Counted from the first letter of the stretch, positions 1,090-24,078 are shown. The stretch: DNA of 27,566 bases from a virus (IMGVR_UViG_3300046517_001855:1-27566); one strand, 5' to 3'. Numbers and translations: made by a program. The notes: a model not told the origin generated them from the sequence alone.

Positions 1090-2528
1090 AGCCACGCCCT
1101 CAGCTTCGGGTCACTCACGCACCGCTCGATCAGCACCTTCGGGCTCCCGACCAGCCGCAGCCCCTCCGCGGTCCGCGCCCGGCTCAGCGCCACATACAAC
1201 ATCCCCGGCGTGCCAAAGAACGCATCTCTGATGTTGACCTGCACCTTGTCCAGGCTCAGCCCCTGCGACTTATGCACGGTGGATGCATATGCCACCCGCA
1301 GCGGCATGTACACCACGTCGCCCACGATCTCCCACTTGCCGTCGACCTTGTCGCCTTCGCCCTTCGCCAGCAGCTCTTTCCTTCTAGCCCCATCGGCGGG
1401 AATCTTCAGTTCACGCCGCACCCGGCTGACCTCGACCGCGCCGCCGGTGCGCTGCAGCTGCACCCAGGCGGTCGTGTCGGTCGCGTCGACCAGCGTGCCC
1501 AGGTCGCCGTTGACATACACCAGCTGCCCGGTGTCGGGGTCGCGATAGTTGTTGAGGATCATCACCAGCGCCCCGATCTTCAGCACCAGCTCCGGGGGGA
1601 CCTGCGAGGTCCACTCGCCGCGCTGCTTGCCCCAGCGGCTGGAGTCGAAGCGCACTTCCTTGCCCTGCACCGCGGCCATGCGCAGGTAGTTATGCCGGTC
1701 GACGTGCTCGTTCCTGGCGACGATGGTCGGCCCCTCGAAGTGGTTGTCGGTCTCCTGCTCGATCAGCCCGCGACTGACGAAGTAGTCCGCGACCTGCTCC
1801 CCCTGGGCCGCCCGCGCCGCCCGCAGCATCTGGATGAAGTCGGCGTCGGCCTGGCGGCGGATCTCCGTCAGGGTTATTAGTGACTCCGCGAACGGCCGCC
1901 ACTCCGGCGAGGTGAACGCATACTCGGCCTTGACCGGCGCCAGCTGCAGGAAGTCACCGACCAACGTCAACCCCATGGCGGGCTGCGGCGTCTCACCGTC
2001 GTCGACCCACTTGCTGATCACATAGCCCCGCCCGTTGACCTCCTCGATCGCCTTGACCAGATAGGTCAGCTGGTCGGCGTCGAGCATCGAGACCTCGTCG
2101 AGGACGAGCCGCCGCACGCCGACCTTCCACAGCCTGCCCAGGCGCGCACTGAGAAACCCGTCCTGGTACTTCTGCCGCATCGAGTCAGTGTCGAAGTAGC
2201 CCAGGACCGAGTTGATGGTCTCGCCGCCCGCGTTGATCGCGGCGATGCCGGTGGTGGCGCAGAGCAGCAGGCCCTTCTCCTGCGCCGCCCACTCCCGGGT
2301 CTTGTAGGTCTTGCCACTCCCCGCCGCTCCGGCGAGGTAGGTATAGGTCGGCACCGGCGACGACCACAACCCGACGTCCGACACCCCTGTGGACGCGGGC
2401 GTGACACTCATCGCCGGTACCAACCGCTCGGGCACTACCACGCGCGACCGGCGCGGTGACACCACCGGCGGGGCAGGCAGCCACCCGAACGTCAACGCAG
2501 GGTCAGGGGGGCTGGCCTGGCGCTGCAT
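1086..2528 (-). CDS. Pif1/RecD-like superfamily 1 DNA helicase, 480 aa
   Basis: ATP-driven 5'-3' DNA helicase by family, probably acting in phage replication or recombination. Walker A GAAGSGKT is at about residues 67-74, followed by an ATTGIAA segment (motif Ia-like) near 91-97. Walker B LVLDEVSM is at about 141-148. Near the C-terminus, VHKSQGLSLDKV and MLYVALSRA match the UvrD_C_2 motifs V and VI. The first 60 residues are Pro/Ser-rich and probably disordered. The length is near that of compact Pif1 proteins. The ATG is preceded by GAGGAG about 8 nt upstream and lies 3 nt after the stop of the cold-shock gene. The stop overlaps the next gene (ATGA). It could be named RecD2-like or Dda-like; the helicase assignment is firm. 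Confidence 0.93.
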   Translation of the reverse strand: MQRQASPPDPALTFGWLPAPPVVSPRRSRVVVPERLVPAMSVTPASTGVSDVGLWSSPVPTYTYLAGAAGSGKTYKTREWAAQEKGLLLCATTGIAAINAGGETINSVLGYFDTDSMRQKYQDGFLSARLGRLWKVGVRRLVLDEVSMLDADQLTYLVKAIEEVNGRGYVISKWVDDGETPQPAMGLTLVGDFLQLAPVKAEYAFTSPEWRPFAESLITLTEIRRQADADFIQMLRAARAAQGEQVADYFVSRGLIEQETDNHFEGPTIVARNEHVDRHNYLRMAAVQGKEVRFDSSRWGKQRGEWTSQVPPELVLKIGALVMILNNYRDPDTGQLVYVNGDLGTLVDATDTTAWVQLQRTGGAVEVSRVRRELKIPADGARRKELLAKGEGDKVDGKWEIVGDVVYMPLRVAYASTVHKSQGLSLDKVQVNIRDAFFGTPGMLYVALSRARTAEGLRLVGSPKVLIERCVSDPKLRAWL

Positions 2529-3294: not shown

Positions 3295-3318
3295 CGCCGC
3301 CTCCTCACATATGCTTTA

Positions 3319-6572: not shown

Positions 6573-7960
6573 TACTCCTCCTCCTCGACCGTCTCGGCCT
6601 GCTCGGGTAACAAGCCCCGCGCCACGGCCTGCACCCGCTCCGGCTCGTGGTGCGGCAGCCTCGCCTGGTAGCCGTTCGCCATCGGGTCGTCCCACCCGTT
6701 ATGGCGGTGGCAGACCGGCACGAACTCACACTGATTGTCCTTGCCAAAGGGTCTGCACGCCCAGCTGCAGGGCACCAGGCGGTCGAGCGCGGCCTGGAAC
6801 GTCGGACTCGACCAGGTGTGCCCCAGCTGCTGCAGCTGATACAACGTCCAGAGCGCCTCTTGCCAGCGGGTCTCCTCGCCCTCGAAGCCGCGCAGCAGCG
6901 ACTTCAGCTGCTCGGCCTGCGGGTTCATGGGGCCGAGGATGAAGCAGATCTTGTCGAGGACACTCGGCGGCAGCATCCGGGTCCAGAACTCCCCCGGTGT
7001 CAGGTCTGGGTCTTGCCCTTGATACGCGCGCCAGGTCGGCCAGTCACTCTCCTCCAGCAGCCACACGCCCGCCCGCTTGTGCATCTTGGAGGCGTGCTTG
7101 GTCTCGCCCTCGGGGTTGACCCACTCGTAACTGGGGAGCCAGTCATCGCTGGCGAAGGGTGGGTTGCCAGGGCGGCGATACCCGTAGCAGAGCGGCGACT
7201 GCTGCTTCTTGCGCGGGTCGTCCGGCGTGTAGCGGTCACGCACCCTGCGGCCCTTGTTCAATCCCACGATGTAGATCTCGGTGACCTCGGTGCCCCACAG
7301 CTCGCGGGCGTCGACCGTGCCCAGGGCGAGCTGCGCGTCGGTCTCCCACTGCTCCGCCCAGGCCTCGGACTCCCAGCCGGTGGTCTTGCACTCGAAGTAG
7401 GCCAGGCTGTGGCCGCTGCGCCGCTCGGCCAGGAGGTCCGTGCGCAGCATGATCGCCTGGCCCTCGCCTAGCATATGCAAGCGTTCTTCCTCAACCCGCA
7501 CGACTTTGTACTGCGCGTGCAGCCAGGGCAGGAACTTCAGCCGCAGCACCCAGGCCAGGCCCGCGACCAGCGCGCACTGCTCGACGATGGTCTCTTCTGT
7601 TTGTGGCCCGCCGAGGATGCCGCGGTAGCCGCGCGCGTCGACCCGCCCCAGGTAGTCGCGGGTAATGGCGCCGATCATCTCGCGCATCTCGACCAGGTCG
7701 GGCAGGCGGTCGAACCGCTGCAGGATGCGGGCGCAGGCTTCGAGGATCTGATGCACCGCGATCCCCGTGACCAGTGGCAGCGCCTCGCGGCGGGCGGTGA
7801 AGCCGTAGCCGGTCGGACCTGCGTGGTAGCCGAGATACCGCGCGCGGGGGCAGCGGGAGATGCCGACCTTGAAGCGGGAGCGGTCGGTGAGCCAGAGGTC
7901 GAGGGGGCTAGAGGTTGGCGCCAGGGTCGGTGTCGTCGTCGGGGTCGTCTCGTCGGACAT
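6572..7960 (-). CDS. Cas4/RecB-like PD-(D/E)XK nuclease with Fe-S-type cysteines, 462 aa
   Basis: Probable exonuclease of the PDDEXK_1/Cas4-AddB type, acting in phage DNA recombination. The active site is visible as RTDLL (D175) and FECKTTG (E190, K192). An upstream cysteine (C37 in ISRCPRARYLGYH) and a C-terminal cluster (C398, C402, C411, C417) match the layout of the 4Fe-4S clamp in Cas4 and AddB. HQILEA (about 70-75) resembles motif I of this superfamily. The first 20 residues are a Thr/Pro/Ser tail. I chose the ATG at 7960 (MSDETT) because GGAGG lies 7 nt upstream; longer frames upstream run into the HTH gene. It overlaps that gene by 53 bases. Confidence 0.88.
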   Translation of the reverse strand: MSDETTPTTTPTLAPTSSPLDLWLTDRSRFKVGISRCPRARYLGYHAGPTGYGFTARREALPLVTGIAVHQILEACARILQRFDRLPDLVEMREMIGAITRDYLGRVDARGYRGILGGPQTEETIVEQCALVAGLAWVLRLKFLPWLHAQYKVVRVEEERLHMLGEGQAIMLRTDLLAERRSGHSLAYFECKTTGWESEAWAEQWETDAQLALGTVDARELWGTEVTEIYIVGLNKGRRVRDRYTPDDPRKKQQSPLCYGYRRPGNPPFASDDWLPSYEWVNPEGETKHASKMHKRAGVWLLEESDWPTWRAYQGQDPDLTPGEFWTRMLPPSVLDKICFILGPMNPQAEQLKSLLRGFEGEETRWQEALWTLYQLQQLGHTWSSPTFQAALDRLVPCSWACRPFGKDNQCEFVPVCHRHNGWDDPMANGYQARLPHHEPERVQAVARGLLPEQAETVEEEE

Positions 7961-8219
7961 GCTGCGCCTCCGTCGTCGTCCTGGTCTGCGTCTTCGTGGT
8001 GGTGGTCGAACGCCGCCGCCGCCGCCGGACAAAGCTATTGGGGGCCACGCCCAGCAGGTCCTCGATCGCGGTCGCGACGTCGAGACCGGGCTTGCGAGTG
8101 CCCTTCTCATACATCGCGATGGTGCTCTGGGTGACGCCGAGCTTGCTCGCCAGGGTGGCCTGTGACCACTTTCTGGCGAGACGCGCGGAGCGGAGGGTCG
8201 TCGGGGGTCGTGTGGGCAC
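7908..8219 (-). CDS. XRE-family HTH transcriptional regulator, 103 aa
   Basis: DNA-binding regulator, probably a Cro/CI-like repressor. Residues 9-62 form a clear HTH_XRE domain: LRSARLARKWSQATLASKLG, then VTQSTIAMYEKGTRKPGL containing the recognition helix, then an AIEDLLGV helix. The domain is followed by RRRRRR, a Thr-rich run and an acidic end, with no oligomerisation or peptidase domain. I chose the GTG at 8219 because GGGAGG lies about 7 nt upstream; an in-frame ATG at 8297 has no good site. Three lambda-like operators lie 140-220 bp upstream, so autoregulation is likely. It leads the leftward replication operon. Confidence 0.9.
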   Translation of the reverse strand: MPTRPPTTLRSARLARKWSQATLASKLGVTQSTIAMYEKGTRKPGLDVATAIEDLLGVAPNSFVRRRRRRSTTTTKTQTRTTTEAQHVRRDDPDDDTDPGANL

Positions 8220-8361
8220 CAGCCGTCCTCCCGTCAAGCGCGAGGGGCGAGTCTGCCCCCCGCCGGGACCGAGGTCAAGTGAACCGCGTCGACCCATGCC
8301 GACCTGTCGCCCGAGTGCGTCCAGGGCCGCTAGGAGACGCTAAGCGGCGTGGACTTTCGCC

Positions 8362-12645: not shown

Positions 12646-12646
12646 C

Positions 12647-13970: not shown

Positions 13971-14479
13971 CAGCGGGGCCCTCCTGCTGGACGAATATCC
14001 ACTTGGGGATATTCCGGTGCCCTGGGCGGCGTGCGGACCATGCGATACCCGGCATCGAACGCGCGCCGGGCGAACCACTGCATGCAGGCCACCGTGCAGA
14101 AGCGCTCCGGCCGGGCGCGGTCGACGCTGGCGGTGTAGCCCTGCCAGCGCTCGAAGACGCGGGCGACTACCCGGCCCCCCGGCCCCCAGGTGTCGCGCGT
14201 CTGGACCCGCAGCGGCTTGTTGCACTTCACACACCGCGGCCGCTCGCCCTCGGGGATACCGGTCACCTCGACGCGCTTGCTGGCGGCGACGCGGCGCAGC
14301 TCCGCGGTCGGCAGCGTCGTGCGCTCCTCGAAGCGCCAGCTGCCGTCGGGGTGAACCTCGGCGAGGTCCGCGGCCTCCGGGGCCTCCTCGCCGCGGGCCG
14401 CATACACGTAGAGCACCCGGTAGCGGGTGCCCTCCGCGCTGACGACGTGTTGCTCGGTCTTGAGCAGGCCTGGCTTCAC
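13970..14479 (-). CDS. Zinc-binding hypothetical protein, 169 aa
   Basis: A beta-rich N-terminal domain (TRYRVLYVYAARG ... WRFEERTTLP) precedes a zinc site, C83-x2-C86 (RCVKCNKPL) with C128-x3-C132 (RFCTVACMQWF). The FC-x3-C part resembles FCS/TRASH-type fingers. The GTG start overlaps the upstream TGA (GTGA) and follows GGAGG. Its 3' end contains an A/T-rich 8-bp inverted repeat (13993-14014) that stands out from the surrounding GC-rich sequence. Function unknown. Confidence 0.76.
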   Translation of the reverse strand: MKPGLLKTEQHVVSAEGTRYRVLYVYAARGEEAPEAADLAEVHPDGSWRFEERTTLPTAELRRVAASKRVEVTGIPEGERPRCVKCNKPLRVQTRDTWGPGGRVVARVFERWQGYTASVDRARPERFCTVACMQWFARRAFDAGYRMVRTPPRAPEYPQVDIRPAGGPR

Positions 14480-14730
14480 AGGACCACCTCCCCTTCGGCC
14501 CCGCCGCGGGCGTGCAGGTAGCCGACGATGTAGGCGTAGGCCACCTGGTAGCGGTGCGTGCGGACGTGTTGCGGCGGGGTGGTCTTGGTGCGGACCAGGA
14601 AGTCGCCGTCATGGCTGATGTGCAGCACCTCGCCCGCCAGGCGCTGCAGGCGCTCGACGTCGCGCTGGTGGTGGTAGGCGGTGCGCTTGCTGGGGGGCAG
14701 CAGGGCTGAGGCGGCGATGCGGGCGGCCAT
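14476..14730 (-). CDS. Small hypothetical protein, 84 aa
   Basis: Not recognised. MAARIAASALLPPSKRTAYH is followed by a helix (VERLQRLAGEVLHI) and a beta-rich end with a YQVAYAYIVGYLHARGG segment. The ATG overlaps the upstream stop (TGATG) at one of three near-identical junctions, with the motif GGTGCTCTGATGGC. Longer in-frame sequence upstream is Arg/Pro-rich and unlikely to be translated. Confidence 0.7.
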   Translation of the reverse strand: MAARIAASALLPPSKRTAYHHQRDVERLQRLAGEVLHISHDGDFLVRTKTTPPQHVRTHRYQVAYAYIVGYLHARGGAEGEVVL

Positions 14731-14966
14731 CAGAGCACCGCCTTTCGCACGGGCTTCCTGATGCCGATCGCGACGTGCCGCCCGACGCCCTCCGCGGCCC
14801 AGTCGGGGATGAACCGCAGCGGGCTGCGGGCCTGGAGCTTCGGCATGCAGGCCGGGTGCGCCAGGACGCTCCAGGCCACACCGTCGGCGTCGTGCAGGAC
14901 GTAGGCGAAGACGCCCGCGCCGTGGTGGCAGCGCAGGCACTTACGAGCGCGGGGACGGGCGGCCAT
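14730..14966 (-). CDS. Small zinc-binding hypothetical protein, 78 aa
   Basis: Begins MAARPRARKCLRCHHGAG, with C10-x2-C13-H14 and a later HPAC (H37, C40), a probable single zinc site. The rest is a mixed fold ending GIRKPVRKAVL. The start and stop junctions both carry the repeated GGTGCTCTGATGGC sequence. Function unknown. Confidence 0.72.
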   Translation of the reverse strand: MAARPRARKCLRCHHGAGVFAYVLHDADGVAWSVLAHPACMPKLQARSPLRFIPDWAAEGVGRHVAIGIRKPVRKAVL

Positions 14967-15310
14967 CAGAGCACCTCCGGCAGCGGCCAGAGGCTGCGGG
15001 GGAAGCCCCAGCTCGCGCTGCCGTCGAGATACACCAGGTCGGTGGTGTGGTCCCAGACGGCCAGGATGCCCTCGCCCGAGCCCTCAGGCCGGGCGCTGAC
15101 GGCGTCCTGGGCGCCGACGTCGGTCTCCGCCTCGGCGAGCAGGACGTCGAAGCGCGGGACGACCTCTTCGTCCGAGAGGGTGAGAGTCGGGTGGACCGAG
15201 TAGCGGGCCCGGCCGACGACGTGGGCGCCGTCGCTGGCAGGCGGCAGGCCCTGGGGGTCGAGCGCTCGCCCGGCGGCGAGCACCTGGTCACGGGTGAAGC
15301 GGCGCGCCAT
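14966..15310 (-). CDS. Hypothetical protein, 114 aa
   Basis: Not recognised. Begins MARRFTRDQVLAAGRALDPQ and continues as an acidic alpha/beta domain (LTLSDEEVVPRFDVLLAEAE) ending in WGFPRSLWPLPEVL. I chose the ATG at 15310 because it overlaps the upstream stop (TGATG) with GGAGG 10 nt before it. It is the first of three consecutive genes joined by the same GGTGCTCTGATGGC junction. Confidence 0.72.
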   Translation of the reverse strand: MARRFTRDQVLAAGRALDPQGLPPASDGAHVVGRARYSVHPTLTLSDEEVVPRFDVLLAEAETDVGAQDAVSARPEGSGEGILAVWDHTTDLVYLDGSASWGFPRSLWPLPEVL

Positions 15311-15723
15311 CAGAGCACCTCCGCCGGAAGGTCCGCGATGCACGCCTGCGCCAGGTCGGGGTAGCCGATCAGCCGGGCGACCTGCTTGATCGCCTCGACC
15401 GTGGCCGCGTTGTCGCCCAGGCTCAGCTCGTCGCCGCGCGCCAGCTCCTCGGCCGTGAGGTCCCCAGGAGCCGCGACGATGACCCCAGCGCGGGGCGCGG
15501 GCTCGCTGATGTATTGCGTGGTCGTGACGCCGTAGACCAGCCTACGGCCATCCTGGTGCTCCCTGACGTAGATCCTGGCCGTGCGGGGCGACTGGCGCTC
15601 GAACTCGCCCTGCCAGTGCTTGGCGATGGCGATGACCGGCCAGTCCACCTCGCGGATCATGACCGGGGGGCGGTCGGTGAGGGTGATCGTGCGCTCGGCG
15701 GGGGCGGCGGGGGTGCGGTTCAT
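15310..15723 (-). CDS. Conserved phage hypothetical protein, 137 aa
   Basis: The core (DRPPVMIREVDWPVIAIAKHW, then RTARIYVREHQDGRRLVYGV) resembles a family of small phage proteins of unknown function with a W-P-VI-A, R-W/A-x-VR-H-DGR-VYG pattern. The C-terminus is helical. The ATG is preceded by the repeated leader CAGGAGACACGACC. A strong hairpin terminator lies about 40 bp upstream, so this gene starts a new block, yet no promoter is visible in the short gap. Confidence 0.78.
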   Translation of the reverse strand: MNRTPAAPAERTITLTDRPPVMIREVDWPVIAIAKHWQGEFERQSPRTARIYVREHQDGRRLVYGVTTTQYISEPAPRAGVIVAAPGDLTAEELARGDELSLGDNAATVEAIKQVARLIGYPDLAQACIADLPAEVL

Positions 15724-15761
15724 GGTCGTGTCTCCTGTGTCTGCTGTGGACGTGTGCCGGG

Positions 15762-15802
15762 TGAAACACAAAGCTGGGCGCCACAGGATTGTGGCGCCCA
15801 GC
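15762..15802 (-). terminator. Strong intrinsic terminator on the minus strand
   Basis: GCTGGGCGCCACA (15773-15785) and TGTGGCGCCCAGC (15790-15802) form a perfect 13-bp stem with a 4-nt loop. On the minus strand it is followed by TTTGTGTTTC. It lies just past the stop of the 15820-16095 gene and would end transcription from the 16.75-kb promoter, fully or in part. Confidence 0.75.
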
Positions 15803-15819
15803 AGGTCGAGTCGTTGGTG

Positions 15820-16095
15820 TCAGCGTCGGGCGGCCTCGCCCTGGAGCTGCAGCGCCAGGCGCCAGGCGCGGCGTGCGGTGTGCAGCATGTCGCCGACCGC
15901 GCGGTCGACGTTCTGCCGCCAGTAGGCGGCGTTGGTGGCATCCACGCCCGCCTGGTCGGCGAGCTGCTGCCACTGGTCCGCCTGGTGCTGGTAGGCCAGC
16001 ACCTGGCGCAGGTAGGTGATGGCGTGCTGGCCCTGGCGGCGCGCCACGGCGCGGGCTTCCCTCTCGCTCCAGGTGAGCTGCGGGCGGCGGTTCAT
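15820..16095 (-). CDS. Small helical hypothetical protein, 91 aa
   Basis: Begins MNRRPQLTWSEREARAVARR and is almost entirely predicted helix, Gln- and Ala-rich, possibly a three-helix bundle or coiled coil (TYLRQVLAYQHQADQWQQLA). The ATG overlaps the stop of the upstream gene (ATGA). Last gene before the strong terminator. Function unknown. Confidence 0.72.
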   Translation of the reverse strand: MNRRPQLTWSEREARAVARRQGQHAITYLRQVLAYQHQADQWQQLADQAGVDATNAAYWRQNVDRAVGDMLHTARRAWRLALQLQGEAARR

Positions 16096-16547
16096 GATGC
16101 CGCCTCGACCGAGAGCCCCTCGGCCTGGATGCCTTCGACGAGCTGGTCGAGCAGCCGCGGCTCGACGGCGAACGAGCGGCCGAGCCACTGCCAGGGCTCC
16201 AGGGCGACGTTCTCGTCGACCCAGTTGCGCGCGTCGGTGGTCTCGGGCGTGAGCAGCCAGACGCTGCCGTGGTTCTCGACGGTGAAGTCGGCGGGGGCGG
16301 CGCTCGGTGCCTGCACCGCCTGGCCCGTGGTGGCCTGGTGGCGCTCGACCCTGAACCCGCCGGTGATCAGCGCCTCGATCGTGAAGTGCTCGCCGCTCGG
16401 CACGCTGACGATGTAGGGGTCGCCGAGACCCTTCGGGAGCCGGACGTAGTCCAGGCCGTGGCCCGCCAGCCAGGCGCGCGTGGCGGCGTGGGTCAAGACG
16501 ACGGGATAGAGCGGGATGGGCTGCGGGGACGAGCTGTGGTGCGTCAT
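16092..16547 (-). CDS. Conserved phage hypothetical protein, 151 aa
   Basis: The C-terminal half, ADFTVENHGSVWLLTPETTD, then ARNWVDENV, WLGRSFAVEPR and LVEGIQAEGL, is a domain I recognise as recurrent in phage genomes with no known function. The N-terminal half is a separate beta-rich part. It has the repeated leader AGGAGACACGACC before the ATG. The stop overlaps the next gene (ATGA). Confidence 0.8.
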   Translation of the reverse strand: MTHHSSSPQPIPLYPVVLTHAATRAWLAGHGLDYVRLPKGLGDPYIVSVPSGEHFTIEALITGGFRVERHQATTGQAVQAPSAAPADFTVENHGSVWLLTPETTDARNWVDENVALEPWQWLGRSFAVEPRLLDQLVEGIQAEGLSVEAAS

Positions 16548-16583
16548 GGTCGTGTCTCCTCTGTGGTCGTGTGGGTGAAACGG

Positions 16584-16703
16584 TTACAGGCTGCGCAGCC
16601 AGGCGATCAGCGGCTCAGCGGCAGCGCGGGCGGCGTCCGGCTTGTTGCAGGCGAGGTAGGCGAACACCTTGGCGAGGCTGCGGGCGGCGTCTGTGCGGTC
16701 CAT
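16584..16703 (-). CDS. Small conserved phage protein, 39 aa
   Basis: MDRTDAARSLAKVFAYLACN, then KPDAARAAAEPLIAWLRSL: two short helices. I recognise the pattern (VFAYL-CGK-x-A-A ... L) from small phage proteins of unknown function. The leader AGGAGACACGAC precedes the ATG, and it is the first gene after the 16.75-kb promoter, about 45 nt from the predicted transcription start. Confidence 0.72.
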   Translation of the reverse strand: MDRTDAARSLAKVFAYLACNKPDAARAAAEPLIAWLRSL

Positions 16704-16754
16704 GTCGTGTCTCCTGCTGTGGGCGGCTGTGTCGGTGCCGCGGTCGAGGACTAG

Positions 16755-16792
16755 AGTCTACCATGCATATGCCCGAAGGTGTCAAGCATATG
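16755..16792 (-). promoter_or_regulatory. CATATG-box promoter at 16.75 kb
   Basis: On the minus strand, TTGACA (16780-16785), 19-bp spacer, TAGACT (16755-16760). CATATG boxes lie in the spacer (16766-16771) and just upstream of the -35 (16787-16792), 21 bp apart. Each box is part of a longer ATGCATATGC palindrome. It would serve the 39-aa gene and those after it. Confidence 0.72.
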
Positions 16793-16814
16793 CATGGCAG
16801 GGGGCTGGCGCCGG

Positions 16815-17378
16815 TCAGCCGACCGGGTTGTAGGCCAGGACGTCATGGCCGTGGATGACGGTGTAGCTGGCGACGATGGCCCCAGCGCGCACCAGGCGGG
16901 CCAGGGCGTTGTAGACCTCGCGGCGGCGGCGGTTGCGGGTCAGGTCGCCCAGCCACTCCGGCAGCGCGCCCAGCTGGTCGAGGTAGTCGGTGACGCTGGC
17001 CGCGGTCAGGACCGGCTCCTTGCGGCCCACCACCTCGGCGAGGCGGTAGGTCTCGCGCAGGTAGCCGAGCACCAGCTGCTCGACGGCGACGCGCTCGCCA
17101 TGGCGCTGGTCGGCAGCCGAGGGCGGCAGCGCGACGCTCGGCCGCACCGGCTCGGGCTCGACGACGGGCTCGACGGCCACGCCCAGGCGCTCGCCCTGCT
17201 CGGCGGTCATGACGAAGCTGCGCACCGCCTCGCGGCTCAGCTTCTGCAGCTGCGCGACCTGCTGGCTGATGGTCTGCCAGTCCCGGTAGTCGAGCGGCGG
17301 GGCGTCGAGGCGGGCGGCCAGGACGTGGACGAGGGCGAGGGCCTGGACGCGTAGGGGGGTCGATGTCTGGTGCTTCAT
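16815..17378 (-). CDS. Hypothetical protein, 187 aa, possible winged helix
   Basis: Unknown function. An N-terminal helical region (LALVHVLAARLDAPPLDYRD) and a Val/Pro/Glu linker (VVEPEPVRPSVALPPS) lead to a C-terminal domain of helices ending RRREVYNALARLVRAGAIVA with a short beta wing (YTVIHGHDVLAYNPVG), reminiscent of a winged-helix DNA-binding fold. The repeated leader CAGGAGACACGACC precedes the ATG. Last gene of the block that begins at 19.1 kb. Confidence 0.74.
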   Translation of the reverse strand: MKHQTSTPLRVQALALVHVLAARLDAPPLDYRDWQTISQQVAQLQKLSREAVRSFVMTAEQGERLGVAVEPVVEPEPVRPSVALPPSAADQRHGERVAVEQLVLGYLRETYRLAEVVGRKEPVLTAASVTDYLDQLGALPEWLGDLTRNRRRREVYNALARLVRAGAIVASYTVIHGHDVLAYNPVG

Positions 17379-17418
17379 GGTCGTGTCTCCTGTGGCTGCT
17401 GGGGGCGCCTGACCAGCC

Positions 17419-17439
17419 CGCCAGGCGTCATGCCTGGCG
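17419..17439. other. GC-rich hairpin between genes
   Basis: CGCCAGGC/GCCTGGCG, a perfect 8-bp stem with a 5-nt loop, in the 78-bp gap before the leader of the 187-aa gene. No T run follows on either strand. One of several hairpins placed at gene-block boundaries. Confidence 0.6.
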
Positions 17440-17456
17440 AGCGGGGGCGGCTGTGG

Positions 17457-17912
17457 TCAGAACACGCGGCGCAACACGGCGACCGCGTCGCGGAAGCTGT
17501 CGCCGTCCGCGGGATACACGGTCGAGATGCTGCTGTCGCTGTAGGGGGTGCCGAGCGGATGGACGTCGACCGCGAAGCCGTTCTGCTCAGTGGCGTACTC
17601 GCGCAGCACCTGCTCGGCGAACGCGCGCCCGACGAAGTAGGCCGGGATGTCGACACCCAGGACGCGCAGGGCGAAGAGCTGCTGCGCCTCGGTGAGCACC
17701 CCGCCGTCGGCGTGATACTCGGTCACCACGCCATCCCGGTCGAGGATGGCGGCCAGGCGGGTGCTCAGCACGGTGAGGTGCGCGCTGCGCTCGCGGCCGA
17801 TCGCCTCGGCGGCCTCGCGGCTCTCGGCCTCGACGACGTAGCCGCTGGTGTAGACGTGGGCGTGGTTCTCGTCGGCGCGGGTGAAGGTCTGGACGAAGTT
17901 GAAGCTGTGCAT
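17457..17912 (-). CDS. Hypothetical protein, 151 aa
   Basis: Not recognised. Begins MHSFNFVQTFTRADENHAHV, beta-rich, then a helical part (AESREAAEAIGRERSAHLTV) and an alpha/beta C-terminal half ending FRDAVAVLRRVF. The first 20 residues suggest a small sheet that could bind a partner. The leader CAGGAGACACGACC precedes the ATG, preceded in turn by a 13-bp tandem duplication. Confidence 0.74.
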   Translation of the reverse strand: MHSFNFVQTFTRADENHAHVYTSGYVVEAESREAAEAIGRERSAHLTVLSTRLAAILDRDGVVTEYHADGGVLTEAQQLFALRVLGVDIPAYFVGRAFAEQVLREYATEQNGFAVDVHPLGTPYSDSSISTVYPADGDSFRDAVAVLRRVF

Positions 17913-17930
17913 GGTCGTGTCTCCTGTGTG

Positions 17931-17956
17931 GCTGCTGTTGACTGCTGCTGTTGACT
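17931..17956. repeat. 13-bp tandem duplication in a gene leader
   Basis: GCTGCTGTTGACT is repeated exactly at 17931-17943 and 17944-17956, just upstream of the Shine-Dalgarno leader of the 151-aa gene. It looks like a recent slippage of the leader's CAGCAG segment. Confidence 0.8.
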
Positions 17957-17970
17957 GCTGTGGTGACCGG

Positions 17971-18246
17971 CTACCGGCCGCCGTTGCTGCCCTGCTCGAC
18001 GACGCCCCGGTGCATCACGAGCAGGTCCTCGCCCACCTGGCGCAGGGCCTCCAGGCGCGCGTCCATCTCCGCCCGGGCGACGCGGTAGGCGCTCTCGCCG
18101 CCCGGCTGGACGTAGTAGTCGCGGCCGTGGACGGTGACCTGGCGCAGGGCGTCGACCGCCGCGATGACTGCGCTGTGCGCCGCTTCCAGCTCGCCGAGCA
18201 GGCTGCTGCGGCCGGTGCCGTTGCTGTGGATCGTCGGAATCATCAT
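17971..18246 (-). CDS. Small conserved phage hypothetical protein, 91 aa
   Basis: Begins MMIPTIHSNGTGRSSLLGEL, then a helix, then VHGRDYYVQPGGESAYRVAR and a second helix. The H-GRDYYVQ-G-ayr-AR pattern recurs in small phage proteins of unknown function. Two adjacent ATG codons are possible; GAGG lies 9 nt before the first. Its leader has diverged from the CAGGAGACACGACC form. Function unknown. Confidence 0.72.
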   Translation of the reverse strand: MMIPTIHSNGTGRSSLLGELEAAHSAVIAAVDALRQVTVHGRDYYVQPGGESAYRVARAEMDARLEALRQVGEDLLVMHRGVVEQGSNGGR

Positions 18247-18280
18247 GGTCGGTGCCTCGTCAGGGGCGTTTGGTCGCCCG

Positions 18281-18309
18281 ACGCCCTGGCTCGCGGGTGG
18301 CCAGGGCGT
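18281..18309. other. Strong GC-rich hairpin between genes
   Basis: ACGCCCTGGC (18281-18290) and GCCAGGGCGT (18300-18309) form a perfect 10-bp stem with a 9-nt loop in the 72-bp gap between two leftward genes. There is no T run on the minus strand, so it may stabilise or process mRNA rather than end it. Confidence 0.65.
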
Positions 18310-18318
18310 TTCGTACAC

Positions 18319-19065
18319 CTACCGCCAGCTCTCGTGCCAGTCGCCGTGCGGCCCGTCGTGGCCCGCGTCCTTGCGGCAGGAGACGCCGACGCCGCCGGGC
18401 GCGCCGCAGACCTCGACCTGGCGCTCGGCGTCCATCTCGGCCTGGCGGGCGGCCAGCGTCGCGCGGATACGGTCGCCGACGCTGGCGGGGAGCGGTTGGC
18501 GCTCGACGGGCTCGGGCGCGACGACCGGCCCGGCCAGCAGCGCGAGCACCGCCACGGCCTGCGCCTCACTCAGGCCGTTGAGGCGCATGGACACCTCGAC
18601 GTCGCCGTTGGGGCGGCTGTCGCCCTCCAGGCGCGCGACGGTCAGGACGCCGCTCTTGACCAGCTCGTTGATCGCGTTGGCCATGGGCTGCAGGCGGGCG
18701 ACGACGGCCTTCTCGCGCAGCAGCTGGGCGTCGAGCTGCGCCTGGGCCGCCTTGGCCGAGGCTCGGGCCACGCGGTCCTCGCCGACGATGCGAATGAGCT
18801 GCCGGGCGATGTAGGTGACGTCGGCGACCTTGGTGAAGCGGTGAATGCCTGCGTGGCGGGCGCGGTCGGCGTAGCTGCCGCGGACCTCGACGCTGCGGAC
18901 CTGGCGCAGGCTGTTGGTGTCGAGGTAGACGGCGATCGAGCTTCCGGGGAAGGACAGGCTGTTGCTGGAGGTGTTGACGGGCAGCGGCGCGAGCTGCTCA
19001 CGCAGGGCGGCGATGTACTGGGCGGCGGTCAGGGTGCTGGCGGCGGGGGCGGACTGTCTGGTCAT
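18319..19065 (-). CDS. Hypothetical protein with C-terminal Cys/His motif, 248 aa
   Basis: Unknown function. It has a helical N-terminus, a Ser/Val-rich central part (SSNSLSFPGSSIAVYLDTNS) and long helices (ASAKAAQAQLDAQLLREKAV). The end, VCGAPGGVGVSCRKDAGHDG then PHGDWHESW, has a C, C, GH, GPH, W arrangement found at the ends of many phage and actinobacterial proteins and probably binds zinc. The ATG follows AGGAGACACGCAC, a variant of the repeated leader. First gene after the 19.1-kb promoter. Confidence 0.76.
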   Translation of the reverse strand: MTRQSAPAASTLTAAQYIAALREQLAPLPVNTSSNSLSFPGSSIAVYLDTNSLRQVRSVEVRGSYADRARHAGIHRFTKVADVTYIARQLIRIVGEDRVARASAKAAQAQLDAQLLREKAVVARLQPMANAINELVKSGVLTVARLEGDSRPNGDVEVSMRLNGLSEAQAVAVLALLAGPVVAPEPVERQPLPASVGDRIRATLAARQAEMDAERQVEVCGAPGGVGVSCRKDAGHDGPHGDWHESWR

Positions 19066-19116
19066 GTGCGTGTCTCCTGTAGCTGCTGTGAACGTGTCTC
19101 GAATGAACCGGTCTTC

Positions 19117-19159
19117 ATTCTACTTGCATATGCTTTTCGGTGTCAAGGCCTATGCTTTC
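19117..19159 (-). promoter_or_regulatory. CATATG-box promoter at 19.1 kb
   Basis: The best promoter in the window: on the minus strand, TTGACA (19141-19146), 18-bp spacer, TAGAAT (19117-19122). CATATG lies in the spacer (19127-19132), and a one-mismatch box, CCTATG (19149-19154), lies upstream of the -35, 22 bp away. Predicted start is about 45 nt before the ATG at 19065. Confidence 0.8.
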
Positions 19160-19169
19160 CCACACCACA

Positions 19170-19202
19170 ATGGGGGGCCAGGCCTGGTGCCCAACCCCCC
19201 AT
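19170..19202 (-). terminator. Hairpin separating two leftward transcription units
   Basis: ATGGGGGG (19170-19177) and CCCCCCAT (19195-19202) form an 8-bp stem around a loop that contains the CCAGGCCTGG palindrome. It lies just past the last gene of the 20.8-kb unit and before the 19.1-kb promoter. No T run, so termination is a guess from position. Confidence 0.45.
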
Positions 19203-19224
19203 GGGTGTCGACGCGGCTCTCCGC

Positions 19225-19437
19225 TCAGAAGGCGCGCGGGTGGCGCCTCGCGAAGGCCAGGTAGTGCGCCGCCCAGGTCCTGGCCGCGTCCCAGTCCTCA
19301 CGCGGCAGCAGCCTCGCCTGGGCGTCACTCCCCGGCCGCCACTGGATCTTGGAGAGCAGCCGGTAGCCCCGCGACCACTGGCCCGAGTGCATGCGCGCCG
19401 CAACGTAGGCGAGCCCGATCAAGCGGTCGGCGTCCAT
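19225..19437 (-). CDS. Small hypothetical protein, 70 aa
   Basis: Not recognised. MDADRLIGLAYVAARMHSGQ, then WSRGYRLLSKIQW and a helix with WDAARTWAAHYLAFARRH. Trp-rich and basic. The ATG overlaps the upstream TGA (TGATG) at a junction with sequence GAAGGTGAAGTGATGG, nearly identical to the next junction upstream. Last gene of its unit. Confidence 0.68.
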   Translation of the reverse strand: MDADRLIGLAYVAARMHSGQWSRGYRLLSKIQWRPGSDAQARLLPREDWDAARTWAAHYLAFARRHPRAF

Positions 19438-19634
19438 CACTTCACCTTCTGGCCAGCGGCTTCGTTGAAGGACGCGGCGAGTTCCCGGCACTCCTCCGGG
19501 GTGAGCGCGACGGTGAGCTTGGTTTTCCCCCCACCGTGGTTGTACCGGATGACCGTGAGGATCGCTCCGCGCATGGCGTGGACGTTGATGATGACCTTGC
19601 GGTGGTTGCCGTCGATCGTGGAGACGAGGGCCAT
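19437..19634 (-). CDS. Small hypothetical protein, 65 aa
   Basis: Not recognised. Beta-rich: MALVSTIDGNHRKVIINVHA, then ILTVIRYNHGGGKTKLTVAL and a helix TPEECRELAASFNEA. The C-terminal GQKVK mirrors the GQEVK end of the upstream protein because the two junctions are near-copies. The ATG overlaps the upstream stop (TGATG) and follows GGAGG. Confidence 0.68.
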   Translation of the reverse strand: MALVSTIDGNHRKVIINVHAMRGAILTVIRYNHGGGKTKLTVALTPEECRELAASFNEAAGQKVK

Positions 19635-20062
19635 CACTTCACCTCCTGGCCGTCGAGCGTGTAGACCCGCACGTCGAGCTGCGTCTCGGCGGTCTTGCTG
19701 GCGAGCTTCCTGGCCAGGTCCAGCCTCCCGCACCAGCCGTGGCAGCCATGCACCGACGCCGCCGAGGCGGCCAGCGTCGCCGCCAGGCGCTCCTCGTGGC
19801 AGGCGATCTCCTGGCGCACCCGGGCCAGGTACTCCGGGTAGAGGCTGCGCTGCTCCTCGTAGATGGCCCTGAGGGGCCCACCGGCGACCACCGCGGCGTA
19901 GTCGCGCTCCTGCTCCAGGTAGTAGGCCAGCTCGCGAGCCAGGCGCGCTCGAATCCAGCTGGGCTTGCCGCCGCGGGCGACGACAATGTGGGAGTAGGTG
20001 CGGTCGGTCGACCGCGAGAAGACGCCGACGGGGGTCGTGACGACGAGCTTAGGCTTGGCCAT
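19634..20062 (-). CDS. Conserved phage hypothetical protein, 142 aa
   Basis: The N-terminus MAKPKLVVTTPVGVFSRSTD, then RTYSHIVVARG, is a pattern I recognise from short phage proteins of unknown function. The middle is helical and charged (LEQERDYAAVVAGG ... YPEYLARVRQEIA) with a CHGWCG cysteine pair near residues 106-110. The gene overlaps its upstream neighbour by 14 bases. The end, VYTLDGQEVK, forms part of the repeated junction. Confidence 0.76.
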   Translation of the reverse strand: MAKPKLVVTTPVGVFSRSTDRTYSHIVVARGGKPSWIRARLARELAYYLEQERDYAAVVAGGPLRAIYEEQRSLYPEYLARVRQEIACHEERLAATLAASAASVHGCHGWCGRLDLARKLASKTAETQLDVRVYTLDGQEVK

Positions 20063-20258
20063 GGGTCCAGCTCCTCAGAGAAGCGCCGCCGAGCGCCAGG
20101 CGCCCAGCGGCCGGGTTGACATACTCGCGCGTGAACAGCAGGCGCCAGCTGGCCTGGCCGCGACGGCTCCAGGCGCTGACGACCAGGCGCCCGTCTCGCG
20201 TCCAGACCTGGGCCAGGCGCACGCTGACGTGGGCAGGGACGGGCTTAGAGGCGGCCAT
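20049..20258 (-). CDS. Small beta-rich protein, paralogue of the next gene, 69 aa
   Basis: Contains SVRLAQVWTRDGRLVVSAWS, then ASWRLLFTREYVNPAAGRLA. Compared with the adjacent 73-aa protein it shares the order RLAx-VW/VE-G, SxW, W-L-F-EYV and an Ala-rich helix at the same spacing, so the two are probably a diverged tandem duplication. Function unknown. It overlaps the next gene by 14 bases. Confidence 0.68.
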   Translation of the reverse strand: MAASKPVPAHVSVRLAQVWTRDGRLVVSAWSRRGQASWRLLFTREYVNPAAGRLALGGASLRSWTHGQA

Positions 20259-20466
20259 CGACCACGTCCTTCCCGGCCAGGAAGCGGCGCCGAGCGGCCT
20301 TGGCGGCCGCCAGGGTGACGTATTCCAGCTCGAACTGCAGCTGCCAGGGGCCGGTCGCGCCGCGTACCCAGCCCGACAGGTAGGCGCGACCGCCCTCCGC
20401 CTCGACCAGCTCAGCCAGGCGCATGACCAGGGGCTTGCCGTCGTCGACCAGCTCGGCGGCCTTCAC
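20245..20466 (-). CDS. Small protein, paralogue of its neighbour, 73 aa
   Basis: Contains VMRLAELVEAEGGRAYLSGW, then GPWQLQFELEYVTLAAAKAA and a basic end. The alignment with the 69-aa neighbour is described there. The GTG start overlaps the upstream stop (GTGA). Function unknown. Confidence 0.68.
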   Translation of the reverse strand: MKAAELVDDGKPLVMRLAELVEAEGGRAYLSGWVRGATGPWQLQFELEYVTLAAAKAARRRFLAGKDVVDGRL

Positions 20467-20774
20467 GAGCGCACCCCCGCCAGGTAGGCCGCGACGTTGC
20501 CGGGCGCCTCGACGACGCTGTACTCCCCGGTGCAGACGGCGACGTAGCCGTGGCCCAGGCCGCCGACGTGCCAGGCGCCATACCGGTCGCCCCGGCTCGC
20601 GTCGTGGAACCAGCCGAGCTTGGCGATCAGGGCGCGGATGGCCCGGATGTGGTTCGCCTCGCTGCCCAGGCTGTAGTCGTAGCCGACGGTCAGGCTCCCG
20701 GCCTCGCAGGACGCCTTGATCCGGGCGCCGCGGTGGTTGGTCGGACCGTGATACTTGGTCGAGATGGCTTGCAT
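20463..20774 (-). CDS. Conserved phage protein of unknown function, 103 aa
   Basis: MQAISTKYHGPTNHRGARIK, then ASCEAGSLTVGYDYSLGSEA and NHIRAIRALIAKLGW: I recognise this signature (MQAI-TKY-GPTN-RG-RI-A, YD ... NH-A-ALI-KLGW) from small proteins common in accessory regions of unrelated phages. Function unknown. AGGAG lies about 8 nt before the ATG, in a variant of the repeated leader. First gene after the 20.87-kb promoter. Confidence 0.82.
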   Translation of the reverse strand: MQAISTKYHGPTNHRGARIKASCEAGSLTVGYDYSLGSEANHIRAIRALIAKLGWFHDASRGDRYGAWHVGGLGHGYVAVCTGEYSVVEAPGNVAAYLAGVRS

Positions 20775-20858
20775 GGCGTGTGCTCCTCTGTGCCGACTGT
20801 GCTGGCGGCTCGTGTCCCGCGGCGCGCGTCGTGCCCGCCGCGTCGAGACCAGGACACT

Positions 20859-20917
20859 ACCTTACTACCATATGCAAGTGGCTGTCAATACATATGCCTG
20901 TGCGCGACAAGCATAGG
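20859..20917 (-). promoter_or_regulatory. CATATG-box promoter at 20.87 kb with three boxes
   Basis: On the minus strand, TTGACA (20883-20888), 18-bp spacer, TAAGGT (20859-20864). Boxes are CATATG in the spacer (20869-20874), CATATG upstream of the -35 (20891-20896) and CATAGG farther out (20912-20917), spaced 22 and 21 bp, on one face of the helix. It drives the 20.8-19.2 kb unit. Confidence 0.75.
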
Positions 20918-20968
20918 TCCAGACGCCCAGCACTCACAGCTCGACCACATACCTCGACCATCTCACCG

Positions 20969-21211
20969 TAAGTGAGGCAAAACTCGAGACCCCCGAAAAC
21001 GCGCTGGCGCCACGAACGCAGGCTCGGTCGACCGAACCCCGCGGAAAACCGGCGGCGTCGCTCCTGAGGCATCCTCGTGGCTCCTAGGGCCTGTGGAAAA
21101 GTGACCTTTTTGCCTCACTTAGCCTGTGCATAACCTGTGGACGTGCCTGTGCAAAACGCATTACAGATTGTAATATCGCGGTATTCGCTCAGTGTTTCCG
21201 CGTGGTTTCGC
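20969..21211. other. Candidate origin: inverted repeats and DnaA-box-like sites
   Basis: TAAGTGAGGCAAAA (20969-20982) and its exact complement (21108-21121) form a 14-bp inverted pair 125 bp apart. Between and after them CCTGTGSA occurs at 21090, 21123, 21134 and 21146. On the minus strand these read TTTTCCACA, TTATGCACA (a perfect TTATNCACA DnaA box), a poor copy, and TTTTGCACA. A/T-rich dyads ATTACA-GAT-TGTAAT and AATATCGCGGTATT follow at about 21160-21185. Origin function is inferred. Confidence 0.5.
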
Positions 21212-22096
21212 CTGCTTTCGCCCCGTCTGGCCTTGCGGCTGGGCTGGCAGGGTTCAGCTGGCTGGCCAGCTCAGCTTGGTGTGCAGCTATGGCAACCGTT
21301 GCCATAGCTGGCCAGGTTGACGGCCGAGTCGCTTGGCGGGCGTTCGAGGGCGGCGTGGAGGGCGGTGTATCGAAGCCCAGCTCAGCAGGCGGCCCGTGGC
21401 CAGGCGCCAGCTCAGCCGTAGCGGCCAGCTCGACCGTAGCCAGCTCAGCCGTAGTCACAGCCGAGCTTCAACCTCGACCACAGCCACAGCCGGGCTTCAA
21501 CCTCGACCGTTCCAGCTCGACCGGTCGGCGGCGCCTCGACGCGCGCGACCAGGCCCTGGCCCGCCTCGACGCCCTGGCACGCCGCTTGCCGCGAGCCGCG
21601 ACAGCCTCAGTGTCTGATAAGAGTTATTATGTTAACTAGCAAGTCGTTGCAAACAAAGGACTTAGCCCTGCTGAGCTACGGATCTGGCCTCACTTTCGCC
21701 TCGCCAGGCGCTCGAACGGCCGCGGCGCCGCCCTCGACGAGGCGCCCGCGCGAGGCGTCCTGGCCCGCCAGCCCCCCAGCCCAGCCGCACACCAGCCCAG
21801 CAGCACACCAGCTCAGCCGGGCAGCAGCTCATCCGTTCCTACGGCTGGGCTTGTAGCTCGACCGCGGCCACGGCAGAGGTTGTAGCTCAGCCATTGTCCG
21901 CGGGCACCCGGCCCCAGCTCCTAGGAGCAGGCGCACCCGACTCCAGCTATATTTTTTTCACTAGAATTTTTCCCCTTGGGCAAGCCCACACGACCACATC
22001 TGGTCGTCTCGCCTTGCCTTGTGACCTCCCCTGTCACGCCTCCAGGCGCAGGGGGGACTAGACAAGCCTGCAGCTCTGCGTGGACGCTGGTCCCTC
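21189..22096. repeat. AGCT-rich non-coding repeat field at the strand switch
   Basis: About 900 bp between leftward and rightward genes with no supported gene. Eighteen AGCT tetramers lie in 21241-21960, where about three are expected by chance. Units include GCCAGCTCAGCCGTAG (21406-21421, 21439-21454), a variant GCCAGCTCGACCGTAG between them (21424-21439), and GCTTCAACCTCGACC (21465-21479, 21494-21508). A/T-rich patches occur at 21615-21660 and 21948-21975, and GCTCCTAGGAGC and ACGACCA-CATC-TGGTCGT dyads occur toward 22.0 kb. No convincing rightward promoter was found. Confidence 0.7.
21284..21310. promoter_or_regulatory. 27-bp near-perfect palindrome, likely operator
   Basis: Two perfect 13-bp arms (CAGCTATGGCAAC and complement) around a single central C. 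This is the longest dyad in the window and lies inside the repeat field, clear of any promoter I can see. It could bind a dimeric protein or form a cruciform. Confidence 0.65.
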
Positions 22097-22468
22097 ATGT
22101 TCAAGGCACTCACCTCCGCGCTCCTGCTCCGGCGCACCGTGGCCGCCCTCGACCGCATCGCGGCCACCCTCGACCGCCAGGCCGCCGCCCTCGACCGCCT
22201 GACCGACCGCTTCGCCCCCGCGCTCCCCCTCGACGACTCCACGGCCACCCGCGCCCGCATCCGCCGCGACACCGGCCTCAGCCACGTCGACCCCGACGAC
22301 CTCGCGGCCGCCCTCGCCTACGTCACCCGCACCGAAGCCGACACCGGCCACACCCCCGACGAGGAGGAGATCATGCTGCACCTGGGCGACGAGCGCACCC
22401 GCGACCTCGCCGAGCGCCTGACCAGCCGCGAAGACGACCTCGCTCGCCTCGCGGAGGCCCGCCGATGA
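22097..22468 (+). CDS. Small hypothetical protein, 123 aa
   Basis: Unknown function. A helical N-terminus with a repeating LDR-A-LDRQ pattern (VAALDRIAATLDRQAAALDR) suggests a coiled coil. The acidic C-terminal half includes DEEEIMLHLGDERTRDLAER. It is the first gene of the rightward packaging region. There is no clear Shine-Dalgarno site before this ATG, so the start is less certain. It ends in an ATGA overlap with a 25-aa mini-gene. I recognise the N-terminal pattern as common in phages near head genes, no more. Confidence 0.68.
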   Translation: MFKALTSALLLRRTVAALDRIAATLDRQAAALDRLTDRFAPALPLDDSTATRARIRRDTGLSHVDPDDLAAALAYVTRTEADTGHTPDEEEIMLHLGDERTRDLAERLTSREDDLARLAEARR

Positions 22469-22542
22469 CTCCAGCGATGTTCGAACGCCCACGCCGCGCA
22501 TCTTCGAAGATCCTGCGGATGCGCCTGGAGGCCCGCCGATGA
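22465..22542 (+). CDS. Mini-gene, 25 aa
   Basis: Encodes MTPAMFERPRRASSKILRMR then LEARR, short and very basic. Both ends overlap neighbours at ATGA. The two junctions share GGAGGCCCGCCGATGAC (22453-22469 and 22527-22543), so both carry a well-spaced GGAGG. Translation is likely from these signals, but it could be a by-product of a duplicated junction rather than a functional protein. Confidence 0.5.
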   Translation: MTPAMFERPRRASSKILRMRLEARR

Positions 22543-22724
22543 CCCCCGACGACCCCAAGCACGCGCCGCCCTACGCCGTCCCGCCGGTCGACCGCGCCGA
22601 GGTCGCGCGCTTCCTGCGCGAGCAACCGCCGCTCGACGTCCCGCGGCGCCAGATTGACCGCCCGGTGCCGGGCCTGGTCGCCGCTGGCCTGCTGGGCGGC
22701 CGCATCGTCCGGCGCTTCGAGTAG
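22539..22724 (+). CDS. Small hypothetical protein, 61 aa
   Basis: Not recognised. Pro-rich N-terminus (MTPDDPKHAPPYAVPPVDRA), then EVARFLREQPPLDVPRRQID and a short hydrophobic end (LVAAGLLGGRIVRRFE). GGAGG lies 7 nt before the ATG in the duplicated junction. It precedes the candidate small terminase gene by 11 bases. Confidence 0.66.
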   Translation: MTPDDPKHAPPYAVPPVDRAEVARFLREQPPLDVPRRQIDRPVPGLVAAGLLGGRIVRRFE

Positions 22725-22735
22725 GAGCCAGGCGC

Positions 22736-23500
22736 ATGCCCAAGCCGCAGAAGCGCTCGCCGGTCGCCAAGGTCGCCCCACGCGCCCCACGACAGTCCAC
22801 CGCGCTGACGTCCCAGGAACTCGACCTCTCGGACGCCGCGGTCGACCTCTTCACCCGCGCGGTCGGCGGGCGCCAGAAGCTCATGGCCACCCTCGCGGTC
22901 GCCGACACCGACGGCCACGTCGACAAGGTCATCAACTGCCTGCTCGACCCGGCCTACCAGGCCTGGCCCCTGCGCAAGATCTGCATCTACGCCGGGATCA
23001 CCGTCGCCGACCTCTTCGCCAGCTACAAGCGCGCCCTCTTCGTCCAGGCGCACATCGACGCCGCGCACCGCATCATCACGCAGCTGCCGCCGGTGGTCGA
23101 CGACGTCATGCGCCGCGCCGCCCCGCAGCCCATCCCCTGCCGCTGCCAGGCCGCCCCGCCACCACCGCCCGACAGCCCGCCCGCGAAACCCTGTCTTGAC
23201 TGCGGCGGCACCGGCACCGTCATGACCGAGCCCAACGTCGAGCGCCAGAAGCTCGCCCTCCAGCTCGCGCACCTCATCGAGCCGCGCGCGGGTGTCATCG
23301 TCCAGCAGAACGCCATCGCCGCCGGGTCGACCGCCCTCGCCTCGACCGCCCCCGGCAGCCTCGAACAGCTGCAACAAGTGGTCGGCGACCTCCTCTTCAC
23401 CCCTGGCCGCGTGCGCGCCGCCGCCCCCGGCGGCTCCGCCACCACCATCGACGTCACGCCCACGCCCCAGACTCCTGCTCCCCACGAGGCGACGCCATGA
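22736..23500 (+). CDS. Candidate small terminase subunit, 254 aa
   Basis: Position two main genes before the large terminase and a central helix-turn-helix-like stretch (RKICIYAGITVADLFASYKR, about 80-99) suggest DNA recognition for packaging. A later zinc-like site, C135-x-C137 and C153-x2-C156 in CLDCGGTGT, resembles a DnaJ-type zinc ribbon, unusual for small terminases. The last 60 residues are Ala/Pro/Thr-rich. AGGAG lies about 9 nt before the ATG. The name rests on position and HTH; a transcription-factor-like or scaffold role is possible. Confidence 0.55.
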   Translation: MPKPQKRSPVAKVAPRAPRQSTALTSQELDLSDAAVDLFTRAVGGRQKLMATLAVADTDGHVDKVINCLLDPAYQAWPLRKICIYAGITVADLFASYKRALFVQAHIDAAHRIITQLPPVVDDVMRRAAPQPIPCRCQAAPPPPPDSPPAKPCLDCGGTGTVMTEPNVERQKLALQLAHLIEPRAGVIVQQNAIAAGSTALASTAPGSLEQLQQVVGDLLFTPGRVRAAAPGGSATTIDVTPTPQTPAPHEATP

Positions 23501-23997
23501 CCAGCCCCGAGCCCGAAGACCCCGCGATGCTGAGCCCCTTCTCGCCTCAGCCCCGCGGCACCCGCGTCCGTATCCTCCCCGCCGACGAGTGGGACCGCCT
23601 GCTGCCGATCGAGCCCTTCGCCACCCGCGGCCTCCCCGACGACCCCGGCTGCTGGGCCGTCCTCGTGGTCGAGCAGGTCGGCCTCGACGGCGAACCGGTC
23701 ATCGTCGGCACCTGCTCCCTCTTCACCGCCATGCACTGGGACGCCTGGTGGGTCGACGACACCCTCCCCGGCGGCACCCGCGGGGTCGTCCTGCGCCAGC
23801 TCCTCACCGCAGGCCTCCAGTCCTTCAAGGACGCCGACATCCAGCAGGTCTACTGCGGCGCCGAAGACGCCACCCCCGAGGTCGCGGCCCTCCTCGAACG
23901 CTTCCGCTTCACGCCCGCCGCGGGTCGGCTCTTCGTCCTCCAGGTCGCCGACGCCCCCGGGGCGCTCCGCCTCGGCTCACTACAGGAGGGACACTGA
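23497..23997 (+). CDS. GNAT-like acetyltransferase-fold protein, 166 aa
   Basis: Residues from about 60 read like a GNAT domain: VIVGTCSLFT (beta4), WWVDDTLPGGTRGVVLRQLL (a GTRG loop where the acetyl-CoA pyrophosphate loop normally lies), then QVYCGAED and TPEVAALLERFRFTP near the end. The first 40 residues are Pro/Glu-rich. The usual Q/R-x2-G-x-G/A motif is only approximate, so catalytic activity is uncertain. It overlaps the upstream gene (ATGA). Role in phage unknown; modification of a protein or a structural use of the fold are both possible. Confidence 0.5.
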   Translation: MTSPEPEDPAMLSPFSPQPRGTRVRILPADEWDRLLPIEPFATRGLPDDPGCWAVLVVEQVGLDGEPVIVGTCSLFTAMHWDAWWVDDTLPGGTRGVVLRQLLTAGLQSFKDADIQQVYCGAEDATPEVAALLERFRFTPAAGRLFVLQVADAPGALRLGSLQEGH

Positions 23998-23999
23998 CC

Positions 24000-24074: not shown

Positions 24075-24078
24075 GTCT

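Follow-up and report, generated by a model that had tools for sequence, protein, structure and literature searches.

The CATATG-type boxes of this phage are very probably the dispersed operators of a small, autoregulated, phage-encoded ribbon-helix-helix (RHH) repressor of the Arc kind, a reading drawn from sequence comparison. It is favoured because box and regulator gene occur together, the box lies in the regulator's own promoter, box and DNA-reading strand change in matched fashion, and both the spacing of paired boxes and a box inside a gene are conserved. The box/RHH set would be a variant form of phage repressor-operator system, and both the candidate regulator and its operators were identified from sequence alone, in a clade of ~70-kb soil phages for which no cultured member was found. 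The DNA analysed is a stretch of 27,566 nucleotides (the window) from the same phage as the 67,441 bp record G001, with 6 mismatches over the shared 27.5 kb. Since the window joins both ends of G001 with 23 extra bases, the genome of ~67.5 kb is essentially known.

Boxes and promoters in the window and its relatives

Three leftward promoters (P1-P3; Table 1) combine TTGACA, an 18-19 bp spacer and TAnnnT exactly where the original prediction had placed them, at 16.76, 19.13 and 20.87 kb. Each also carries the predicted pair of CATATG-type boxes, one in the spacer and one upstream of the -35, with spacings of 21, 22 and 22 bp for P1, P2 and P3, respectively, and the extra third box 21 bp beyond the pair is present at P3. 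The copy of P1 in G001 is identical, with its boxes at 59788/59809, and in a scan of positions 9000-27566 the promoter closest to consensus was P2 (11/12). P3 is the first leftward promoter and adjoins the divergence from the rightward structural genes, a position that makes it a plausible main early promoter. Six accessory genes have a nearly identical leader right before the start codon on the minus strand, (CAGCAG...)ACAGGAGACACGACC-ATG, at window positions 15721, 16545, 16701, 17376, 17910 and 19063; this leader exceeds a bare ribosome site and is a repeated translation-start cassette.

Table 1. Promoters, boxes and genes discussed in the text (window coordinates unless a G001 position is given)
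Feature	Position	Strand	Description
Promoter P1	16755..16793	-	TAGACT 16755-16760, 19-bp spacer, TTGACA 16780-16785; read directly
P1 boxes	16765-16772; 16786-16793		GCATATGC in spacer; GCATATGC; spacing 21 bp
First gene after P1, 39-aa ORF	16584..16703	-	repeated AGGAGACACGAC leader before gene; read from sequence
Promoter P2	19117..19155	-	TAGAAT 19117-19122, 18-bp spacer, TTGACA 19141-19146
P2 boxes	19126-19133; 19148-19155		GCATATGC in spacer; GCATAGGC; spacing 22 bp
First gene after P2, 248-aa ORF	18319..19065	-	Pfam/PHROG: no match
Promoter P3	20859..20918	-	TAAGGT 20859-20864 (weak -10), 18-bp spacer, TTGACA 20883-20888
P3 boxes	20868-20875; 20890-20897	+	CCATATGC in spacer; ACATATGC; 22 bp apart, one mismatch each
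P3 third box	20911-20918	+	GCATAGGT, degenerate; 21 bp farther out
First gene after P3, 103-aa ORF	20463..20774	-	PHROG 3199
Junction box	3307..3314		ACATATGC between TAA stop and ribosome site of next leftward gene; promoter search: none
Helicase-gene box	1285..1292		perfect GCATATGC inside gene, codons GCA TAT GCA of VAYAST
Box inside ORF 6572-8110	7471..7478		perfect; relatives have boxes elsewhere within same gene
HTH_3 (XRE) protein	7911..8297	-	sole obvious regulator in the window
RHH-like protein, 72 aa	G001 34613-34831	-	outside the window; MPKKPYSYDYTARANPRRYLLSGIPPTLWERVRSRARREGISVRQLILQLVEAWAARPEGADEVVLPSAVAD

In this window of 69% G+C, CATATG occurs 9 times, whereas 100 shuffles average 1.48 and peak at 5 (0/100 reach 9), and TGCATATGCA with at most one mismatch occurs 5 times for ~0.25 expected. 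Relatives were collected by searching viral contigs with the terminase (window 24772-27114), which gave 52 loci, most of those other than G001 being 59-83% identical in this protein; kinship among the records inflates all counts. That related phages would retain both the boxes and their spacing was borne out: pairs at 20, 21 or 22 bp are found in G003, G004, G010, G022/G023 and G037, in the same neighbourhood as P1-P3, 3-9.5 kb upstream of the terminase gene. Partners (at most one mismatch) of the 67 perfect boxes lie 20-24 bp away, plus one at 28 bp, the outliers being 24 bp in G013 and 28 bp in G001; half-boxes 11 bp apart occur in G016.

The boxes are rarer in coding sequence, as had been anticipated. 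Perfect boxes are intergenic in 39/52 cases (nine box-bearing records tested), although intergenic DNA makes up only ~8-19% of these genomes, and 23 control palindromes matched in composition gave corresponding counts of 0-7. Box-less records contain two perfect boxes in total. A blind count of intergenic 8-mers placed the box or words overlapping it among the top motifs in eight records (G001, G003, G011, G012, G013, G022, G023 and G037), and it was not among the top words in G002, G029, G015, G017, G020, G030, G032 and G007. The fuller consensus is the palindrome WWGCATATGCWW, found at 43 of the 54 intergenic sites. A recognisable promoter surrounds 15 of these 54 perfect boxes, compared with 39/2100 random intergenic positions, a 20-fold enrichment by odds ratio. 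Three relatives without GCATATGC (G040, G032 and G015) have recurrent intergenic words of their own, CATAACCG, with GGTTAACA/ATGTTAAC in addition in G040; these are possibly operators of another regulator.

The RHH-like protein and its putative reading strand

The proteins of all records were clustered by similarity, and those families were listed that accompany the box and are missing without it. The top family in this comparison is a small RHH-like protein. In G001 its gene closely follows the DNA polymerase gene and belongs to an operon that has a promoter of its own. Among records of at least 65 kb, G001, G013, G016 and G037 have both GCATATGC enrichment and the RHH protein, G002 and G029 have neither, and G040 has a divergent RHH protein together with a different CATATG box. 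Several box-bearing records are fragments without the RHH region, in which co-occurrence is uncheckable; G011, with boxes and no RHH gene, is a contig that stops inside the polymerase gene, before the expected RHH place.

A second search of viral contigs, with the RHH protein as the sole query, returned 15 loci, several of them outside the terminase set. GCATATGC is located upstream of the RHH gene in 15/15, at a distance of 280-1630 bp, the expectation being 0.08-0.21 per whole locus. Most of these loci show the arrangement TTGACA-(1-3 nt)-GCATATGC-(~8 nt)-TAnnnT with a TTGACA-like -35, and in some a second box overlaps the -10 with the same 21-22 bp spacing; the -35 beside the box is poor in L145, L149/L151 and L152. 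G029, which is without the RHH protein, still has the operon's first gene and, at the same place, a TTGACA-18-TATGAT promoter from which the box is absent. Several promoters of G029 (L119-L122; upstream of 23447 and two others) have CGGTGCGACCG-like repeats around TTGACA, where other phages have the CATATG box, and these perhaps represent a replaced repressor and operator set.

The regulator appears to be an Arc-like RHH protein, an assignment of fold assembled from sequence and model evidence that is weak singly. Four members of the family match the Arc-like repressors of PHROG 6506 (E 3.7e-5 to 5e-3). A Pfam search gave nothing above the cut-off, ParG at 0.011 lying below it, and a search of the PDB gave ParG at 0.25. 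The list from a fold search consists mostly of RHH proteins (Arc, CopG, ParG, MatP, PutA), all with E-values >1. In the predicted monomer, two confidently modelled helices (residues 26-39 and 43-55) come right after the segment RYLLSGIP; the ribbon is not formed as a strand in this model, which does not fix the strand position that would face DNA, and we propose no residue-by-residue recognition code.

Divergent members of the family came from a wider, mixed-alignment search, the G040-type protein as a lone query having returned only its own contig. In promoters upstream of the RHH gene, the strand LLSGIP goes with GCATATGC, LLDSIP and LLDKIP with TCATATGA (G040, L161), LLDQIP with ACATATGA (L159) or TCATAGGA (L158), and LLDLIP and LLDGVP with CCATATGG (L160, L162). 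The CATATG-like core is constant and the outer base pair varies with the strand; the association has a Fisher p of 8e-5 for 11 S-type versus 6 D-type distinct loci, relatedness being ignored. In the RHH superfamily strand residues determine the operator sequence, and here, by comparison, strand and box change together over 17 distinct loci. Four further loci (L163-L166; strands LLARVP, FTVTDIP and FKVRRIP) lack a CATATG-type box upstream, and no other motif could be established in its place. The short natural series of matched changes (strand residue S or D; outer base G, T, A or C) makes RHH recognition directly testable. The accessory genes had been proposed to form one regulon. The notion of a single regulator is supported, the RHH gene standing beside a box-bearing promoter in every case and box and strand covarying, but the limitation to accessory genes has to be given up, as the RHH operon, sites at late-gene junctions and sites inside genes would also belong to the set.

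Boxes outside promoters and the proposed mechanism

The box is not confined to promoters. Outside any recognisable promoter lie 39 of the 54 intergenic boxes, most of them no more than a few tens of bases from a start or stop codon, late genes included; because the gaps between late genes are short, this nearness is not evidence in itself. The ten perfect boxes of G001 comprise four in promoters, four at gene junctions and two in genes, and its relatives are similar. The box in the helicase gene is formed by GCA TAT GCA in 6/6 box-bearing genomes compared (G001, G010, G011, G013, G037 and L151, the codons of G010 being read from sequence context), whereas G002, G029 and G040, which have no LLSG-type RHH protein, encode the same residues as GCC TAC GCA or GCG TAT GCG. 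These are rare codons, and from codon usage GCA TAT GCA together is expected at <0.001. The A/T flanks are kept in 9/13 intragenic boxes, and in both G001 and G022/G023 a box occupies the corresponding position ahead of rightward (late-arm) genes of one family. On this evidence these sites look selected, and the window boxes at 3307, 1285 and 7471 are probably real sites.

The two-stranded ribbon of an RHH dimer would read the palindrome WWGCATATGCWW, the mode of DNA reading described for such proteins (PMC3325190). With boxes spaced by 21-22 bp, a pair of dimers would sit on the same side of the helix, over the -35 and spacer region, so that RNA polymerase would be excluded by the bound dimers; cooperativity of this same-face binding is suggested by the spacing only. 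The RHH protein would repress its own operon and the leftward promoters P1-P3 of the accessory region; the other boxes, scattered over gene junctions and gene interiors, may be sites of its action as well. That the protein binds the boxes, that it represses instead of activating, and that the sites outside promoters have any function are what we infer from these patterns. By analogy with mycobacteriophage L5 (PMC9283540), the dispersed sites may affect elongation, or they may have an organising role.

A more far-reaching possibility, which we consider less likely than not, is a genome-wide, stoperator-like silencing, in which all boxes, whether at promoters, at late-gene junctions or within coding sequences, would be bound, initiation and elongation would both be stopped, and immunity in this clade would be diversified through substitutions at one or two residues of the strand, matched by a change of the outer base pair in every box. 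Cluster A mycobacteriophages (L5 gp71; TipsytheTRex repressor) carry >20 stoperators in each genome, both at promoters and within short intergenic gaps; each is a 13-bp asymmetric site in fixed orientation, and the repressor that reads it is a monomer combining an HTH with a stoperator domain (PMC9283540, PMC6550527). The present boxes resemble them in being many, dispersed and located at promoters and short gaps, and in a consensus that changes with the repressor. They differ in being 8-12 bp palindromes, of which G001 has about ten perfect copies, in including a conserved site within coding sequence and promoter sites paired about two helical turns apart, and in going with an Arc-like RHH protein of 57-115 aa. 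The box, being a palindrome, has no orientation with respect to transcription, and the protein is RHH-like instead of a homologue of L5 gp71; on account of this symmetric site and unrelated protein, the set is not an L5-type stoperator system, although it may work like one. If the dispersed sites act as roadblocks, the mycobacteriophage stoperator strategy would have been invented independently by a far simpler protein.

The proposed RHH repressor shares with P22 Arc/Mnt, CopG, AmrZ and MetJ its small RHH-like form and predicted ribbon-strand reading, and with AmrZ its proposed autoregulation, but its sequence is too distant for family assignment (PHROG Arc-like E 3.7e-5 at best), and its sites are dispersed through a phage genome and combine a CATATG core with a variable outer base pair. 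The MrpR repressor of SPbeta has a tyrosine-recombinase fold and a 15-bp motif, SPBRE, at about ten promoters (PMC10516654). It likewise joins one phage repressor to repeated intergenic sites in one genome, whereas the protein here is RHH-like and many of the sites lie outside promoters. MatP is an RHH protein with dispersed palindromic sites, matS, which organise the Ter domain of the bacterial chromosome. An RHH-like protein and dispersed palindromes are common to both systems and MatP tops the fold list, but here the boxes show a strong association with promoters and go with a much shorter protein.

It is worth weighing whether the boxes are sites of a DNA-organising or partition protein, ParG/centromere-like or MatP/matS-like, and overlap promoters through autoregulation only. 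The best fold matches include ParG and MatP, Pfam has the weak match to ParG, and the sites are dispersed, at gene junctions and within genes. Such a role is nevertheless improbable, given the promoter enrichment of the boxes, their fixed position relative to the -35 and -10 and the integrase that many relatives carry instead; a partition system was rejected on the absence of ParA, the ParA-type ATPase PF13614 being found in 0/25 records (controls 14/14).

Other candidate regulators and phage context

A different reader of the boxes was also considered in place of the RHH protein, namely the Cro/CI-like HTH_3 (XRE) protein of the window or a second HTH protein of G001 (40985-41314). The former is a clear member of its class (Pfam E 1.2e-15; transcriptional repressors in PHROG), is encoded in the same genome and is of a kind that binds palindromes near promoters. 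Its weak homologues (29-37% identity), however, are found in box-bearing and box-less relatives, for example G002, the presence/absence comparison picked the RHH protein instead, and its own promoter has no box, the nearest perfect one lying inside the following gene, so that we give a regulator of this type only a slight chance. The window XRE/HTH protein was rejected as the box regulator, as its homologues do not track the box. The second HTH regulator of G001 lies near the polymerase gene, where most long relatives carry a tyrosine integrase. A host transcription factor, the regulon of which the phage would have adopted, is very improbable: the CATATG core is simple, but box identity tracks a phage gene, changing with the RHH reading strand and being absent in relatives without the RHH protein.

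Searches of genome contigs with the terminase and the RHH protein found no relative, and the best terminase of a named phage is only 28% identical. Among RHH-bearing relatives with long records, the majority encode a tyrosine integrase, near the polymerase gene. This enzyme is absent from G001 (the present phage) and G040, and a search for a serine integrase found none. Because an integrase is carried by most long RHH-bearing relatives but not by these two, the RHH system may have a function in lysogeny. A further palindrome, GTACGTAC, has 12 occurrences, all intergenic, in box-bearing and box-less genomes alike.
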